Below are positions 15,572 through 30,432 of a stretch of DNA of 39,355 nt, piece after piece. Where the stretch lies: positions 1 to 39,355 of the forward strand of contig MEMA01000039.1 in the NCBI GenBank assembly GCA_001767835.1. The letters run 5' to 3'. The position numbers and the translations under genes are program-made. The stretch is from Alphaproteobacteria bacterium GWC2_42_16 (GTDB taxonomy: Bacteria; Pseudomonadota; Alphaproteobacteria; UBA9655). The notes under the pieces are model-generated. The model ran no database searches, was not told where the DNA came from, and saw only the letters and a program-made list of their open reading frames with translations. Numbering within the stretch: position 1 is the stretch's first letter; each line of letters starts with the position of its first letter.

Positions 15572-16729
15572 ATGCAAAAACTGACTAAGAAAATTGTTGA
15601 GTCAACTCTCCCTCAAGATAAGGATCTTATCCTATGGGATTCTGAGATCAGTGGATTTTTTTGTAAGGTGACTCCTACTGGGAAGAAGAGCTATTTTTTG
15701 TATTATCGCACTCAGGATAGAAGACAACGAAGACCAAAAATTGGCGATCATGGAATTATGACTTGTGAGCAAGCCAGGAATATAGCCCAACGGTGGCTTT
15801 TGGAAGTGAGCCAAGGGAAGGATCCTTCCGGAGAAAAACAAGAGGTGCGCCAAACTCCAATACTCAAAGAGCTTGCAGAAAAATATATGAAAGAACATGC
15901 CCCCCACAAAAAATTGTCAAGCTGCAAAGAAGACCAACGGTTGTGGAATCAATTTATTCTGGCCACTTTGGGTTCATTAAAAGTCTCATCTATAGAGAGA
16001 AGTGATATCGCCAAGCTTCACCACTCACTACAACATCTTCCGACGACAGCCAACCGCGTGCGGAGTCTTTTGTCTAAAGCTTTAAACTTAGCGGAGTTAT
16101 GGGGGTATAGACCAAACCATTCCAATCCTTGCCTTCACATAAAAAAATATAGTGAAACGAAACGAGAGCGGTTTTTAAGCCAGGACGAGATTGCTAAATT
16201 GATGGGAGTACTGGATGAGGAGGAGAGAGGAAATACAAATCCCTGGCCTCTTCATGCGATTCGCCTGCTATTGATTACAGGGTGTCGCCTCAATGAAATT
16301 CTTACCCTCAAATGGGAAGAGGTCGATCTGAAGAACCAGTGTCTACGTCTTCGGGATAGCAAGACAGGCAAAAAACTTATTTATCTTTCAACAATTGCCA
16401 TTGAGCTTTTAAAACACATTCCTCAGGAGGTTGGGAATCCTTTTGTGATTTGTGGGGGCAAAGAAGGAGCTCATCTCATTAACCTGCAAAAACCCTGGAG
16501 GCGGATTCGAGAGAAGGTTGGACTTGAGGATGTTCGTCTCCATGACTTACGCCATACCTTTGCCTCAATAGCTGCCAGCAACGGGTTATCCCTCCCCATT
16601 ATAGGAGCCCTCTTAGGGCATAAACAAACCCAAACCACAGCTCGCTATGCTCACCTTATTGGGCAGCCCCTTCTAGAAGCAAGTGAAAAAATAAGTGGAA
16701 AGATTATGGAAAAAACAAAAAACGCCTAA
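15572..16729 (+). CDS. tyrosine-type site-specific integrase (P4-like, DUF4102 N-terminus)
   Basis: 385-residue recombinase. The N-terminal arm-binding domain of the DUF4102 type covers about 1-90 (KLTKKIVES, then GFFCKVTPTGKKSYFLYYR). A SAM-like core-binding domain follows. The catalytic domain has R239 (GCRLNEIL), H324 and R327 (HDLRHTFAS), H350 (GHKQTQT) and nucleophile Y359 (ARYAHL). It should integrate and excise the island at the tRNA-Lys 3' end 160 nt upstream. All catalytic residues are present, so it appears active. Confidence 0.96.
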   Translation: MQKLTKKIVESTLPQDKDLILWDSEISGFFCKVTPTGKKSYFLYYRTQDRRQRRPKIGDHGIMTCEQARNIAQRWLLEVSQGKDPSGEKQEVRQTPILKELAEKYMKEHAPHKKLSSCKEDQRLWNQFILATLGSLKVSSIERSDIAKLHHSLQHLPTTANRVRSLLSKALNLAELWGYRPNHSNPCLHIKKYSETKRERFLSQDEIAKLMGVLDEEERGNTNPWPLHAIRLLLITGCRLNEILTLKWEEVDLKNQCLRLRDSKTGKKLIYLSTIAIELLKHIPQEVGNPFVICGGKEGAHLINLQKPWRRIREKVGLEDVRLHDLRHTFASIAASNGLSLPIIGALLGHKQTQTTARYAHLIGQPLLEASEKISGKIMEKTKNA

Positions 16730-21349: not shown

Positions 21350-23761
21350 ATGCAGTTTATTCATAAATACATTCAGCGTGTAAGAAGCTGGTTTTATAAT
21401 TGTAATGCTAAGAAAGCAGCGGAGCTGGGACAAACCAAGCTTGCACAAGAAAAACCAATTGCATCACCTTCAAATATCCCTCTTGTTTCTCCCATTCCTT
21501 CCTCCCTCTCTCCTGAAGAAAAAATCTCCCTTTTTATGGACCTTTTTCAGGGCCGTCGAGATGTCTTTCCCAAACGATGGGACAATCAAAAAACAGGTAA
21601 GTCAGGATATTCTCCAGTCTGTCAAAATGAGTGGGTGCGAGGAGTTTGTAAAAAACCACAAATCAAATGCAGCGAATGCCTCAACCAGGCCTTTGTCCCT
21701 GTCACAGAACAAGTGATCCGCAAGCACTTTACTGGAGAAAAAATAGGTAATTCAAGACGAGACTATACGATCGGGGTTTATCCAATGCTTAAAGATGAAA
21801 CCTGTTGGTTTTTAGCCGTAGATTTTGATAAGGAACAGTGGAAAAGGGATGCGAGCGCTTATCTGGAAACATGCCGCCTGAGAAATGTTCCTGCTAGCCT
21901 GGAGCGGTCTCGTTCAGGCAATGGTGGGCATGTTTGGATCTTTTTTAGTGAGCCGATCTCTGCACCTGATGCTCGAAAAATGGGAGCAGTACTCCTCACG
22001 GAAACCATGGAACGGTGTCCAGACATGGGATTTGAATCCTATGATCGCTTCTTTCCTAATCAAGATACGATGCCTACAGGAGGATTTGGCAACTTGATTG
22101 CTTTACCCTTGCAATGCCAGCCCCGCAAGCGCGGAAACAGTGTCTTTCTGAATGAGCATTTTGAACCATATACAGATCAATGGGGTTATCTTTCGTCTCT
22201 AAGACGGATGAGTTTAGAAGAAGTTAAAGTTATTGTAGAAGAAGCCTCATCTAAAGGCAGAATCCTTAATGTGCGAATACCTCTTTCTGAAGATGAGGAA
22301 AAACCATGGGAAATGTCCCCTTCACGTCTCAAGGCAGATATTCCTATTGATCAAAAACTGCCTGAGTCTATTGAGGCCATCCTCAGCAATCAGATCTTCA
22401 TTTCCAAAAAGGATGTACCTCCAGCTCTCATGAATAAGCTCATCCGGTTGGCGGCCTTCCAAAATCCTGAGTTTTACAGCGCTCAAGCGATGCGGCTTTC
22501 GACGTTTGGAAAGCCACGCATCATTGCTTGTGCTGAAGATTTTCCCCAATACATAGGGCTTCCAAGAGGATGCCTAGATGATGTGATGAACCTGCTGACT
22601 TCTCTTGATATCAAGCTGGAAATTGTTGATAAGAGAAATGAGGGAGCCTCACTTAAAACAAAGTTTCTTGGAGAACTTACCCCCCCGCAAAAACGAGCTC
22701 TTAAAGAATTAGAGAAATACGATACGGGCGTGTTAGCTGCAACGACTGCTTTTGGGAAAACTGTTATTGCTGCTAAACTCATCGCCGCAAGAAAGACGAA
22801 TACACTGATTTTGGTCCATCGCCGGCAATTGTTGGATCAATGGGTTGAAAGGCTGCGGGCATTTCTGGATATTCCAGAAAACCACATAGGGGTCATTGGG
22901 GGTGGAAAACATAAACCCTCAGGCATCATTGATGTAGCTCTTATCCAAAGTCTTGTAAGAAAAAACGTTGTTGATGACATTGTGGCTAATTATGGTCAAT
23001 TGATTGTGGATGAATGTCACCATCTCTCAGCCGTCAGCTTTGAGGCGGTTGCGCGGGCGACAAAGGCAAAATATGTCCTTGGACTTACAGCAACTGCAAC
23101 CCGAAAAGACGGTCATCATCCCATCATTTTTATGCAGTGTGGTCCTATCCGTTATAAGGTGAATGCTAAGCATCAAGCGACTCTACGTCCGTTTAACCAT
23201 AAGGTCATTGTTCGAAATACAGCTTTTCAATTGCAGATTATCAATGATCTAAAATCCAGCATTCAACAGCTCTATGCAGGGATCGTTGCAGATAAGACTA
23301 GAAACCAAATGATTTTTGATGATGTGTTACGCGCTTTACAAGAGGGCCGCAGTCCCTTGTTGCTTACGGAACGAAAAGATCATGCCATGGCGTTAGCTGA
23401 ACGATTTTCAAAATTCTGTAAAAATGTAGTTGTGATGGTCGGAGGCCAGTCCGTAAAGCAGCGAGAGTTGATTAAAACGCAGCTTGAAACAATCCCTGAA
23501 GAGGAAGAACGCCTCCTCATCGCAACAGGCCGTTATATAGGTGAAGGATTTGATGATTCAAGGCTGGATACCTTGTTTCTCACCATGCCCATTTCCTGGC
23601 ATGGGGCACTCGCTCAATATGCCGGCCGACTCCATCGCCTTCATCATAGCAAAAGGGAAGTAATCATCTATGATTATATTGACTCATCTCACCCCATGCT
23701 CTCCAAAATGGCTGATAAAAGGATGAAGGGGTATGGCAAATTGGGGTATAGTTTAAGATAG
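21350..23761 (+). CDS. TOTE-type conflict-system primase-helicase
   Basis: 803 residues. A Cys cluster (C91, C100, C107, C110) precedes an archaeo-eukaryotic primase domain with D158-x-D160 (FLAVDFDKE), the GNGGHVWIFF motif with H194, and GGFGNLIALPLQ near 242-254. A superfamily II helicase follows with TTAFGKTV (about 464-471), DECH at 554-557, LGLTATATRKDG, and a C-terminal lobe with ATGRYIGEGFDDSRLDTLF and QYAGRLHR. This fusion matches TOTE conflict proteins, thought to act against invading DNA. The nuclease usually found in TOTE loci is not visible as a separate domain. The first 45 residues are unlike the family core. Confidence 0.88.
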   Translation: MQFIHKYIQRVRSWFYNCNAKKAAELGQTKLAQEKPIASPSNIPLVSPIPSSLSPEEKISLFMDLFQGRRDVFPKRWDNQKTGKSGYSPVCQNEWVRGVCKKPQIKCSECLNQAFVPVTEQVIRKHFTGEKIGNSRRDYTIGVYPMLKDETCWFLAVDFDKEQWKRDASAYLETCRLRNVPASLERSRSGNGGHVWIFFSEPISAPDARKMGAVLLTETMERCPDMGFESYDRFFPNQDTMPTGGFGNLIALPLQCQPRKRGNSVFLNEHFEPYTDQWGYLSSLRRMSLEEVKVIVEEASSKGRILNVRIPLSEDEEKPWEMSPSRLKADIPIDQKLPESIEAILSNQIFISKKDVPPALMNKLIRLAAFQNPEFYSAQAMRLSTFGKPRIIACAEDFPQYIGLPRGCLDDVMNLLTSLDIKLEIVDKRNEGASLKTKFLGELTPPQKRALKELEKYDTGVLAATTAFGKTVIAAKLIAARKTNTLILVHRRQLLDQWVERLRAFLDIPENHIGVIGGGKHKPSGIIDVALIQSLVRKNVVDDIVANYGQLIVDECHHLSAVSFEAVARATKAKYVLGLTATATRKDGHHPIIFMQCGPIRYKVNAKHQATLRPFNHKVIVRNTAFQLQIINDLKSSIQQLYAGIVADKTRNQMIFDDVLRALQEGRSPLLLTERKDHAMALAERFSKFCKNVVVMVGGQSVKQRELIKTQLETIPEEEERLLIATGRYIGEGFDDSRLDTLFLTMPISWHGALAQYAGRLHRLHHSKREVIIYDYIDSSHPMLSKMADKRMKGYGKLGYSLR

Positions 23762-25023: not shown

Positions 25024-25066
25024 GTCTAAGAAAATCTCAATAAATACTCATTCATCTTTGTTCATG

Positions 25067-25093
25067 AAAGAAAGCCTCAACAAGGCTTTCTTT
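25067..25093. terminator. strong hairpin terminator, probably bidirectional
   Basis: AAAGAAAGCCT (25067-25077) and AGGCTTTCTTT (25083-25093) form a perfect 11-bp stem with loop CAACA. The A/T flanks give U-runs in both directions. Confidence 0.75.
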
Positions 25094-25190
25094 CCTATTG
25101 CTATTTAGTATGGCAGCCATCTGAAGTTTAGTCCTACACTTATTGCGTTTCTTTCTCATTGAATATCTCTCCAAAGATCATTTTTGATTC

Positions 25191-25264
25191 TTCGAAGTGG
25201 AAAAAAGTTTGTATTCGAAGAATCATTATTTATGCATTCGAAGTAACAAAATCTTACATTCGAA
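25191..25264. repeat. iteron-like array of four TTCGAA palindromes
   Basis: TTCGAA occurs at 25191-25196, 25214-25219, 25237-25242 and 25259-25264, giving spacings of 23, 23 and 22 bp. Flanks are similar (ATTCGAAG in two, ATTCGAAT in the last, CTTCGAAG in the first). The sites lie in an AT-rich noncoding region between a terminator and the AlpA-like gene. Regular spacing near two helical turns suggests cooperative binding of a dimeric protein, a regulator or a replication/excision protein. Confidence 0.7.
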
Positions 25265-25316
25265 TATACATATTTGTATATGCAGAGAAAATAAAGTATA
25301 TGATGCAGAATTACTG

Positions 25317-25362
25317 TTGACGATAACTTTGTTTTGTGTTTTCATAAGGCAATTGGCCAATT
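25317..25362 (+). promoter_or_regulatory. alpA-like control region: TTGACG and a 12-bp palindrome
   Basis: TTGACG at 25317-25322 could be a -35; the matching -10 is poor. The perfect palindrome AATTGGCCAATT (25351-25362) lies 42 nt before the ATG at 25405, with a CAATTGGCCA core that also occurs at 14943 and, inverted, at 19624. Confidence 0.4.
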
Positions 25363-25404
25363 CAAGGCCAAATCCATAAGAATAAGAAGAAAGGAAAATC
25401 ATTT

Positions 25405-25647
25405 ATGGAAAAACTATTACTGACTCCAGAAGCCTTAGCTGAGCGCTGGAACATTACCCCTGCAACTTTAAGCCAGTGGCGATGGAATGGGCGGGGACCT
25501 CTCTTTATTAAAATGAATAAGGGTGTTCGATATCGTCTTTCAGATATTGAGCGCTTTGAAGAGCAACATACCTGTCAAAATACATCACAAAAAATTCTTG
25601 GTGTTGCGCTTGACTGTCGGCCAACCCTGAAGAGTGACCTCATTTAA
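25405..25647 (+). CDS. AlpA/MerR-like helix-turn-helix DNA-binding protein
   Basis: 80 residues. The N-terminal winged-HTH core has LTPEALAERWNITPATLSQWRW (7-28), the GRGPLFIKMNKGVRYRLSDIERF wing (29-51) and a short tail. Such AlpA/excisionase-like proteins control integrase genes or act as excision directionality factors. AAAGGAAA lies before the ATG. It sits downstream of the TTCGAA array, which it may bind. The TAA is followed directly by an 8-codon ATG frame that is also present in the decayed copy at 18588. Confidence 0.85.
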   Translation: MEKLLLTPEALAERWNITPATLSQWRWNGRGPLFIKMNKGVRYRLSDIERFEEQHTCQNTSQKILGVALDCRPTLKSDLI

Positions 25648-25706
25648 ATGGCCTTTAATGGCACTCACTTTTAGTCACCATTAAAACCAACCCGAAAGGA
25701 AACTCT

Positions 25707-27168: not shown

Positions 27169-30100
27169 TCAAAGGGAAAGGCCGCCTCTGTCTAGGGTTA
27201 AGGAACGGGAATGTTCTTCTTTCATCATCCGTTCAATGAACTTTGCTTCTTTAGTATCCTGAAGTTTAAGGGACTTCATAAAGTCTTTATCCTGAGCTAA
27301 CTCTTTGCCGAGACGCTTAAATTCTTCTTCAAAATAAGACTCAGCTTTTGGATTATCTTTGAGGATACACCGTAAAGCTTTAAAGCGAAGGTAGGTGGCT
27401 TCTAGAGTGTTTTGATGATCTGTGTTCTTTTGTTTTATTGTCCTCTCTTCTGGCTTTTCTCTTAAGTCAGGCTCTTGTCTTTCAAGAGCATTGTCTTTTA
27501 GATTTTGAATAAGCTTAAGAGTTTTTGCGGGATCTTGTTTAGCAAACTCACGTGCTTCATTCTTCCATTTCTCTGAAAGATAGATTAAGTGCGGGGAGTT
27601 TAATTCCTTTTCAACTTTGGTGAGGCTTTCTTGATAAAGATGAACAAGCTCTTCCTTTTTGCTTTCCCAATAAGCAATGGCTCTTTCTTCACCATAAAGT
27701 TTCAATCCCTTTTCAAAAGCTTTTCTTATAGCTTTCGCTTGAGGATGGTGACTCGCAAAGGCGGGTTGTCTCATGTCTTCATACACAGCTTTGAGAGTAG
27801 AGCTGGTGGAGTAAATATCTTTCCCATGAGCCTTATTATAAAACTCTTCTCCGACCATGGCCTTTTTTAAATCTTCGGAAATAGCCTGAGATTTTGAAGT
27901 TTTTGATGTTGGATTATGGACGCGGTTATAAAGCTCTTCGCCCAGCATTGTGCGTTTTAGGTCTTCCGTAACGGCTTGAGATTGTGTTGCCTTTGGTTTT
28001 GGGTTATAGATCCGGTTATAGAGCTCATCCCCCAGCATGGCTCGTTTTAAGTCTTCAGAAATGGGCTCAGGTGTTTTCTTGTTCGGGGAAGGGGATAAGG
28101 AAACCGGGTGATTGGAAAGGTCTTTAGGTTTTTCGAAGTTATAAAAATCCTCATTTTTGTGAAAAACGTCTTTTATTTTTGTGACGACTTTCTCAGCACC
28201 TTGTTTAATGTGGGTTGCAAGGGTTTTTTCCTCATGGCGCTTTTCAATGTCTTTTAAGGTATCAAACCGGAGGCTTGGGCCATTCCCATCTTGCCGTGTC
28301 ATTTGCCGAATCAGATGAGCCTCAGTTGGGGTTTCATCTTTCGAGACATAAAGGCTAAGAGACTTTGTTTGGCGCGTTAGGGCGACATAGTTGACAGATT
28401 GATCGATGATTTTACTGTGAAGCACATAGACATGATCTAAAGTTGATCCTTGAGCCTTATAGACGGTTGAAGCATATCCATGCCGGAGTCCATCATAGGT
28501 GTGAGGATCAACTTCTTTTTTTTCTTTGTTATCAAGAAGAACGGTTAGTTTTTTTGTTTGAGGATCTATTTTTTCAATGGTTCCAAAATACCCATTGAGG
28601 AGTCCTTGATCTCTGTCTGTTTTTGTAAAGTGAATCCTGTCTCCTTCCGCAAAGCTCATTTTGCCCCTTTGGGTCATACAAGTTACCTCTAGGCTTCCCA
28701 GCCGCCCTTGCTCACAGAGAATATCTCGAGCCCCCTGATTTAATGCGTCTACATCGATGTTTTTTTGAGCTAGGATTATTCGTGTTCCGTGGGAGTGGCT
28801 TTCCTTCGCCCAATCTTTGAGAATATCTGAAAGAGCGTCTTCTTTTGTGTCTTTCCATTGAATCGCCTTATTTTCTTCAAGAAGAGAAACGGCATTCCTC
28901 ACATCTCCTTTAGAAAGGTCTTCTGAAACTGCCTTTTGCCAATCAATTGTTTGACGTCTGACCTCTTGAAGCGTAACGGCTCCATATCGCTCCGCTAAAA
29001 GACCAAAGGCCCCTCCTCTGGCAACAGAACTCAGCTGCCGATCATCCCCCACAAGAAGAAGCTTTGCTCCACTTGTTTTGATGACATGAAAAAGCTCAAC
29101 CGAGAGCTCTGTGCCCATCATTCCCGCTTCATCGACCACCACAAGTGTATTTGAGTTAAGCGTTTCTCGATTGTTCTTAAATGCAAATAAAAAGGCATGA
29201 CACGTCTTGGCCTCTTTAAACCCGTCTGCCTTTAAATCCAAGGCTACTTTATGAGTCGGGGCTAATCCTAAGACCCTAAACCCACTTTCCTCATGAGCCA
29301 TACGAATAGGGGTTAAAACAGTGCTCTTGCCCACACCAGCTCGTCCTTGAATCAGACAAAGATTCCTGTTTTCATTGACACAATGCTCATAAGCGGCTTT
29401 TTGTTCAGGACTTAAAATAATCCCTCTATCTTGCTTCCCCACTATGAGAGGGTGGTTAAGACCTACTCTCGGCTTATTAGCGATATTGTCTGCAAAACGA
29501 ATCAGCTTTTCTTCCTCAGATCTCACCTCTTGAGTTGTAAAATAGCCTGTCTTTTTGCCGGTTTCCTTGTCATACAAAGAAAGCACGTCTTTACTTTCAA
29601 TGACCTTCTCAAAAAGTCCCTCTCTTTCATTAAAGGGAACATGTTTGTTTAAAAAGATATCGATATCTTTCCCGGTAAAGACAGCTCGATTCTGGGTTAT
29701 AGTCTCAATCACGCTTTTTGGATCTTGGGCAAGCTTCTCATTTGCCTTTTGAAGCATCTGAGATCTTAAAAGAGCCTCATTCATATGATGGCGCATGCGT
29801 ACAGGGCCTAAATGCTCTTGAGCGACAATTCCAATAGGATCAACCTGAAGGTCATACCCTTTTTCTTCAAAATAAGCATTTTGAAGGTCTCTCCATATCT
29901 CTCCCCACAATTCCGCTTCGACCACAAATCCCTTTCGAAACACCGGATCTAGATCTGTTGCTTTCTTTGAATAAAAAGAAGTCCCATCTTCTGAAAACCG
30001 TCGTGTAGTGACAAGAAAATGTGTGTGCCAGTTTCCTTCTCCGTCATGGGGTTCATGAATATCAAACTGAACAGCGACCCCTTTTTCAACAAAGATGCAT

Positions 30101-30432
30101 GCAAACATTCGGCTGAGTTCAATACGATCTTCAAAACTAACTTCCTTATCATCAGGAAGGGCAATCACGAATTCCTTAGCCACCTGACTGTCTCTTCGCC
30201 TCTCGCATCTTTCGGCTTCATTCCAAAGCACTGAGCTATTCTGAAAGCGTGCATCAGCTCCAATGGGCAACATGATTTCATGATGGACATTGTCGCCTCT
30301 TTCCTTAAAGGAAAAGACTTCTCCCGTTCTTTCGCATCTGAGTTCCTCACGCTGATTGTAAGAAGCCTTACGGCAGGCGTTACCTCCCGTACTTCGAGAT
30401 ACGTATTGACAACGTGCGAATTGAATGGCCAT
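27169..30432 (-). CDS. traA: Ti-type conjugative transfer relaxase/helicase TraA
   Basis: 1087 residues. MobA/MobL-type relaxase domain (about 1-220) with candidate Tyr25, and H126, H129, H136 and H138 (IHEPHDGEGNWHTHFL) for metal binding. The RecD-like helicase has Walker A GRAGVGKST (about 363-371), VVDEAGMMGTEL, and YASTVYKAQGSTLDHVYV. This enzyme nicks oriT and unwinds the transfer strand. Between about 788 and 868 a 30-residue unit occurs three times (DLKRAMLGDELYNR and relatives), followed by a charged coiled tail. The C-terminal tail is unusual in carrying these repeats. Starts 8 nt after the RhuM-Fic stop. Confidence 0.94.
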   Translation of the reverse strand: MAIQFARCQYVSRSTGGNACRKASYNQREELRCERTGEVFSFKERGDNVHHEIMLPIGADARFQNSSVLWNEAERCERRRDSQVAKEFVIALPDDKEVSFEDRIELSRMFACIFVEKGVAVQFDIHEPHDGEGNWHTHFLVTTRRFSEDGTSFYSKKATDLDPVFRKGFVVEAELWGEIWRDLQNAYFEEKGYDLQVDPIGIVAQEHLGPVRMRHHMNEALLRSQMLQKANEKLAQDPKSVIETITQNRAVFTGKDIDIFLNKHVPFNEREGLFEKVIESKDVLSLYDKETGKKTGYFTTQEVRSEEEKLIRFADNIANKPRVGLNHPLIVGKQDRGIILSPEQKAAYEHCVNENRNLCLIQGRAGVGKSTVLTPIRMAHEESGFRVLGLAPTHKVALDLKADGFKEAKTCHAFLFAFKNNRETLNSNTLVVVDEAGMMGTELSVELFHVIKTSGAKLLLVGDDRQLSSVARGGAFGLLAERYGAVTLQEVRRQTIDWQKAVSEDLSKGDVRNAVSLLEENKAIQWKDTKEDALSDILKDWAKESHSHGTRIILAQKNIDVDALNQGARDILCEQGRLGSLEVTCMTQRGKMSFAEGDRIHFTKTDRDQGLLNGYFGTIEKIDPQTKKLTVLLDNKEKKEVDPHTYDGLRHGYASTVYKAQGSTLDHVYVLHSKIIDQSVNYVALTRQTKSLSLYVSKDETPTEAHLIRQMTRQDGNGPSLRFDTLKDIEKRHEEKTLATHIKQGAEKVVTKIKDVFHKNEDFYNFEKPKDLSNHPVSLSPSPNKKTPEPISEDLKRAMLGDELYNRIYNPKPKATQSQAVTEDLKRTMLGEELYNRVHNPTSKTSKSQAISEDLKKAMVGEEFYNKAHGKDIYSTSSTLKAVYEDMRQPAFASHHPQAKAIRKAFEKGLKLYGEERAIAYWESKKEELVHLYQESLTKVEKELNSPHLIYLSEKWKNEAREFAKQDPAKTLKLIQNLKDNALERQEPDLREKPEERTIKQKNTDHQNTLEATYLRFKALRCILKDNPKAESYFEEEFKRLGKELAQDKDFMKSLKLQDTKEAKFIERMMKEEHSRSLTLDRGGLSL
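27830..28068 (-). repeat. in-frame triple 90-bp repeat inside traA
   Basis: Three copies of about 90 bp on the minus strand encode SEDLKRAMLGDELYNR, TEDLKRTMLGEELYNR and SEDLKKAMVGEEFYNK, each with a Pro/Thr/Ser-rich linker of about 14 residues. The third lacks the full linker. Nucleotide similarity is visible (for example CTCTTC-CC-CC-ATGG-CTTTT blocks). Confidence 0.8.

Follow-up and report, generated by a model that had tools for sequence, protein, structure and literature searches.

Phased TTCGAA palindromes upstream of an AlpA-like gene in an alphaproteobacterial island resemble the iterons of O-like/DnaD-like initiator genes

The island and its phased array

The window examined here, meaning the whole 39,355-nucleotide stretch of DNA that was analysed, is an entire contig (C39) of the 1.54-Mb assembly of Alphaproteobacteria bacterium GWC2_42_16. 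It contains an island that starts near a tyrosine integrase gene at 15572 and whose cargo includes an ATPase, AbiEi/AbiEii-like genes, a TOTE-type primase-helicase, an array of TTCGAA palindromes followed by an alpA gene, HigBA, and a TraA relaxase. The features that bear on the array are the following.

15572-16729, plus strand: tyrosine integrase at the left island end (Pfam Phage_integrase, E 2.9e-25)
25067-25093, no strand assigned: perfect 10-bp hairpin, terminator-like, with a T-rich 3' arm, upstream of the array (read from the sequence; no call by a consensus scan)
25181-25277, no strand assigned: entire iteron-like array with quasi-palindromic flanks (alignment and flank profile)
25191-25196, no strand assigned: core 1, TTCGAA (pattern search of the sequence)
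25214-25219, no strand assigned: core 2, TTCGAA (pattern search of the sequence)
25237-25242, no strand assigned: core 3, TTCGAA (pattern search of the sequence)
25259-25264, no strand assigned: core 4, TTCGAA (flank score 11.5, nearest to the in-gene iteron profile)
25274-25295, plus strand: TTGTATATGCAGAGAAAATAAA, resembling the (T)ACAGAGAnTAC motif conserved downstream of the iterons in initiator genes (19/22 identical to locus L073)
25317-25345, plus strand: candidate weak alpA promoter, TTGACG-17 bp-TTTCAT, 52 bp downstream of core 4 (read from the sequence)
25353-25371, plus strand: leader hairpin TTGGCC...GGCCAA, preceding the ribosome-binding site (read from the sequence)
25405-25647, plus strand: AlpA-like HTH_17 protein of 80 aa, an excisionase-type regulator (Pfam HTH_17, E 1.1e-7)
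27169-30432, minus strand: TraA (Ti-type) relaxase-helicase (TIGR02768, E 2e-164, 548.8 bits against a curated cut-off of 590)

The four cores start 23, 23, and 22 bp apart on the plus strand, and their flanks are alike, A/T-rich and quasi-palindromic. The hexamer itself is not enriched in the window (19 occurrences against 19.8 expected), and the unusual feature is its phasing alone. The expected chance count of such four-site chains in the window is approximately 5e-7, no three-site TTCGAA chain occurred in 2.36 Mb of first-order Markov sequence, and no phased chain of any 6-bp palindrome (at least three sites at 20-25 bp) occurred in 6.8 Mb of shuffled loci. A first-pass annotation of this DNA had described the spacing, the similar flanks, and the noncoding position before an AlpA-like gene, all of which are borne out. 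It had also placed a strong terminator upstream, where there is indeed a perfect hairpin with a T-rich arm, although the consensus scan did not call it.

The immediate surroundings include a small open reading frame of about 35 codons (25048-25155, minus strand), which is divergent from alpA, overlaps the terminator-like hairpin, and sits where related islands carry an Xre regulator. The candidate alpA promoter received no call from a consensus scan, and paralogs have TTGACA at a similar distance. A DNA search of plasmids with window positions 25100-25700 returned no match. Elsewhere in the island, the gene at 21350-23761 encodes an archaeo-eukaryotic primase of the TOTE type fused to a helicase (AEP-TOTE, E 2.7e-101), which is also present in the related islands of genomes G015, G004, and G003.

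The AlpA-like gene and its upstream DNA

The AlpA-like protein matches PHROG excisionase and transcriptional regulator families (E 2.8e-7), and its relatives include proteins of metagenome-assembled genomes labelled Caedibacter sp. 37-49 and 38-128, while a query against viral contigs returned none. The first-pass annotation had proposed the array as an operator of this protein. Autoregulation of this kind would suit the position of the array directly upstream of the gene, and relatives such as RdfS and AlpA are autoregulatory (PMC11963761, PMC11773190). The idea is nonetheless poorly supported, because AlpA genes with the same recognition helix lack the array. The nearest paralog outside C39 and C52 (the contig of a second island in the same genome), that of G015, is 76% identical and shares the TLSQWRWNGRGP helix, yet it is accompanied by a divergent Xre gene and lacks the array. 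The TTCGAA array is likewise absent upstream of the other, more distant paralogs examined, the same helix recurs in paralogs with quite different upstream DNA, and some AlpA-like genes are preceded by 10-bp TTCTCATT arrays instead. These latter arrays suit head-to-tail binding one turn apart, a mode that is described in the case of BldC and suggested for RdfS (PMC11963761). The window array resembles the RdfS, AlpA, and BldC operators in adjoining a gene for a protein of such a type; however, those proteins recognise either direct repeats or weakly specific DNA, at a spacing of one helical turn, whereas the window sites are palindromes at 22-23 bp, or two turns, and among close relatives are retained with the gene in C52 only. 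Among AlpA-containing loci drawn from public genomes (n = 80), the only phased TTCGAA array was one already known from G014. Autoregulation would also leave the arrays within initiator genes, described below, unexplained. With close paralogs lacking the array, we rejected an AlpA operator as the main reading and regard it as very improbable.

The same annotation had suggested an origin or excision site. We rejected an attachment or excision site, as the array lies inside the element and away from the integrase gene, 8.5 kb downstream of it in C39 and at a distance of approximately 2.2 kb in C52, whereas the suggestion of an origin fits the iteron match presented below.

As a separate observation, six exact TTCTCATTNN repeats at 10-bp spacing lie approximately 100-160 bp upstream of AlpA-like genes at L021 (G007:C17), L026 and L092 (G006:C12), and L089, and are a candidate operator for AlpA-like proteins.

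Phased arrays inside initiator genes

Across the 17 genomes that make up the order, phased TTCGAA arrays were detected on contigs C39, C52, and C44 of G000 and in G005, G011, and G014, and nowhere else. Those of C44, G005, G011, and G014 all lie within a single gene family (the G011 copy being apparently frameshifted), which matches the PHROG families 'replication initiation O-like' (E 2.5e-20) and 'DnaD-like helicase loader' and was found in 15 of the 17 genomes, the highest count for any one genome being 13 matches. Most of the 26 initiator gene copies that were read carry a TTCGAA-like array in a linker between the conserved N- and C-terminal parts, spaced at 21 or 22/23 bp within the order. 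Exact TTCGAA sites are concentrated in this linker, with 59 in 10.9 kb as opposed to 10 in the remaining 29.3 kb of the genes. The C44 gene, at L048:6215-7885, holds seven iterons 22/23 bp apart whose cores alternate between reading frames, indicating that it is the DNA rather than the peptide that is conserved. Given this alternation, and the noncoding position of the window array, we rejected coding repeats as the source of the phasing.

A structure model of the initiator (overall pLDDT 55, low) places a winged-helix-like region before the linker and predicts disorder at residues 171-269, where the cores lie. Searching the full initiator against solved structures gave nothing at E < 0.001 and weak MarR/ArsR-like winged-helix matches above E 0.02, and a fold search of a viral library returned phage HTH and replication proteins with E values down to 6.5e-9 and low TM-scores; the initiator query against viral contigs found no relatives. 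Bacillota plasmids encode homologues of the N-terminal part (E as low as 7e-27; 35-42% identity). When one core mismatch is allowed, genes of a 143-kb Bacillus subtilis plasmid and of Alicyclobacillus pAACI01 carry seven and five sites, respectively, at 21 bp and at the same linker position, and more distant plasmid homologues carry no TTCGAA array. A repeated (T)ACAGAGAnTAC element, hereafter the CAGAGA element, lies 3' of the iterons and is conserved from the Alphaproteobacteria to the Bacillota, including these two plasmid genes.

Likeness of the window array to in-gene iterons

We compared the window array with the in-gene iterons by three tests that are independent of the core hexamer. 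Its alignment to the C44 in-gene array scored 61, against a maximum of 46 among 300 null alignments in which the cores were kept in place (0/300 reached the observed score). A flank profile trained on 44 sites from other genomes scored the four array sites above all 15 other TTCGAA sites of the window (p = 0.0012 against 48 controls). Finally, on the side where one would be expected, a CAGAGA element lies 15 bp downstream of the first base of core 4, which is a modest match in that 5 of 1000 shuffles were as good. All three tests favour the view that the window array is, in its sequence, the same thing as the in-gene iterons. The best alignment to C44 is in reverse orientation while the CAGAGA element fits the forward one, and the orientation of the array is ambiguous because its units are quasi-palindromic. 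The cooperative, helically phased binding envisaged in the first-pass annotation would fit such iterons.

With at least three TTCGAA-type cores at 21-23 bp, iteron-like flanks, and a downstream CAGAGA element, the array resembles the origins of this initiator family in sequence; it is not of the in-gene type, as it is noncoding in both C39 and C52. No match to the initiator gene, fragments included, was found in either contig, both elements ending at contig ends in an assembly that is approximately 97% complete, and an initiator gene could sit in the unseen sequence of either element.

The likeness of the flanks also bears on whether the array might serve as operator for an Xre-type regulator that is now lost or unlinked, with its resemblance to iterons arising by convergence. 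As a simple palindrome, TTCGAA is the sort of site that Xre proteins bind, and a divergent Xre gene occupies the same spot beside alpA in all but one of the six other C39-type islands that were mapped, being absent from C39 and C52, where the array is found. Against this, Xre genes are present elsewhere without an adjoining TTCGAA array, and the likeness to iterons extends beyond the core. We consider convergence on an Xre operator highly unlikely.

A second copy of the array

The second island (C52) carries the same array upstream of the same gene. The BLAST match between the two contigs spans window positions 25152-25586, and 25220-25350 is identical in both, compared with 89% identity for the integrase genes (93% for the integrases). 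The C52 array is shorter by exactly one 23-bp unit, between cores 1 and 2 of the window, with its phase preserved. The loss of a single unit with the phase kept suits a tandem array of binding sites, while the shared block could also reflect a recent exchange. These are the only two noncoding arrays known; they sit in a block that is almost identical between them, which may mean that one was recently copied from the other, and their conservation is accordingly not independent. The phasing recurs in C52 but not in the other related islands, which keep the gene and lack the array, the outcome that the first-pass annotation had itself named as one that would refute its reading.

The two copies also inform the question of whether the array is a non-functional relic, either a scrap of an initiator gene or an old integrated origin. 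In favour of this, the order is rich in decayed integrative and conjugative elements (ICEs), and the displaced array is known from one or two independent cases only. However, the cores and phase are intact, the C52 copy differs by exactly one unit in phase, and the block around the array is more strongly conserved than the integrase genes. The absence of an initiator protein match, fragments included, led us to reject a decayed initiator gene fragment, and a relic of any kind seems to us quite improbable.

Two differences around the arrays may be added. In C52, the array and alpA are followed by a gene for a TraG/VirD4-type coupling protein that overlaps alpA. The arms of the leader hairpin are TTGGCC/GGCCAA in C39 and TTGGCTCG/CGAGGCCAA in C52, the stem being retained with changed letters amid nearly identical surroundings.

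Putatively displaced iterons and a co-resident ICE

We consider it probable, on the strength of these sequence comparisons, that the array represents the iterons of a lambda-O/DnaD-like initiator and some of the origin sequence next to them, displaced from the initiator gene to the control region of alpA in a mobilizable-type island and served in trans by the C44 ICE. In this model, the palindromic cores, spaced at two helical turns, would present binding sites for initiator dimers along a single face of the DNA. Iterons of known in-gene origins generally support replication when the initiator is provided in trans (PMC3155836). We infer that initiator binding, origin activity, and supply in trans apply to the window array as well, the most likely supplier being C44. 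This contig represents a distinct element that has its own integrase and an initiator gene bearing seven iterons, as well as F-type transfer functions (TraL, TraC). Binding of the C44 initiator to the C39 and C52 arrays would then allow the excised island to replicate, control alpA, or let the island sense an active ICE.

The second of these outcomes can be taken as a reading in its own right, in which the same iterons act as an operator rather than an origin, and the ICE initiator works through alpA to induce (or repress) excision, tying the movement of the island to ICE activity. The end of the array lies 52 bp upstream of the possible weak alpA promoter, and C39 and C52 have the array where most other C39-type islands have an Xre gene beside alpA. 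Moreover, there is a precedent in the activation of SGI1 xis by AcaCD of its helper (PMC4605294). A CAGAGA element would nevertheless be superfluous for an operator alone, and both the promoter and the regulation are conjectural. We regard an operator role without origin function as rather unlikely.

Building on the preferred reading of displaced origin iterons, we tentatively suggest that the island is a conjugation satellite engaged in origin piracy, in which detached iterons let an island of mobilizable type use an ICE initiator to replicate and/or to time its excision. We give this extension somewhat less than an even chance. The island has an integrase and TraA, and in the C39-type stretches mapped, in which the right end of the island lies beyond the contig, we found neither a conjugation apparatus nor homologues of C44 TraC or other C44 transfer genes.

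Comparison with known systems

The arrangement is most readily compared with the origin of lambda and Stx phages, in which iterons lie inside the O gene. Both have phased iterons with an adjoining unwinding-type region of the kind that serves an O-like initiator, and the related initiator genes likewise carry iterons in the linker. Iteron number in lambda-type in-gene origins varies by whole units, 4 versus 6 (PMC7466680). Unlike the phage origin, the window array lies outside an initiator gene, consists of TTCGAA palindromes at 22-23 bp, and is known here from sequence. Plasmids pLS32, pSK41, and pAD1 are listed as having in-gene iteron origins (PMC3155836). The Bacillota plasmids identified above, whose genes are likened by sequence and whose role as active replicons is putative, share the homologous N-terminal domain, TTCGAA-type linker sites at 21 bp, and a CAGAGA element after them; in these plasmids, however, array and initiator gene are united, whereas the window array is separate. 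Together, these likenesses point to an initiator family, found in ICEs of protist-endosymbiont-like Alphaproteobacteria and on Bacillota plasmids, that harbours a phased, palindromic TTCGAA origin within the initiator gene itself; the same sites also occur detached from it, beside an excisionase-type gene on another kind of element.

SGI1 offers a parallel as a mobilizable island with a cis-acting sequence that is read by a protein of its helper element (PMC10954446, PMC4605294), in that it carries parS sites of its IncC helper plasmid (PMC10954446). The difference is that the borrowed sites of the window island would be origin iterons and that its mobilization by the ICE is presumed. If confirmed, the window island would be a mobilizable island that reads the replication protein of another element, and origin iterons would join transfer regulators and parS sites among the known pirated helper signals.

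Two further features of the initiator family were observed. The 3' ends of the linkers (e.g. L055, L059, and L061) run from iterons through ACAGAGA repeats to a conserved alternating GCGCGCGCG stretch, as does that of pAACI01. At L055, L057, L070, L071, and L079, short genes of 176-208 aa that match the initiator N-terminal domain only lie beside the full gene, and their products are possible regulators that bind the same iterons.
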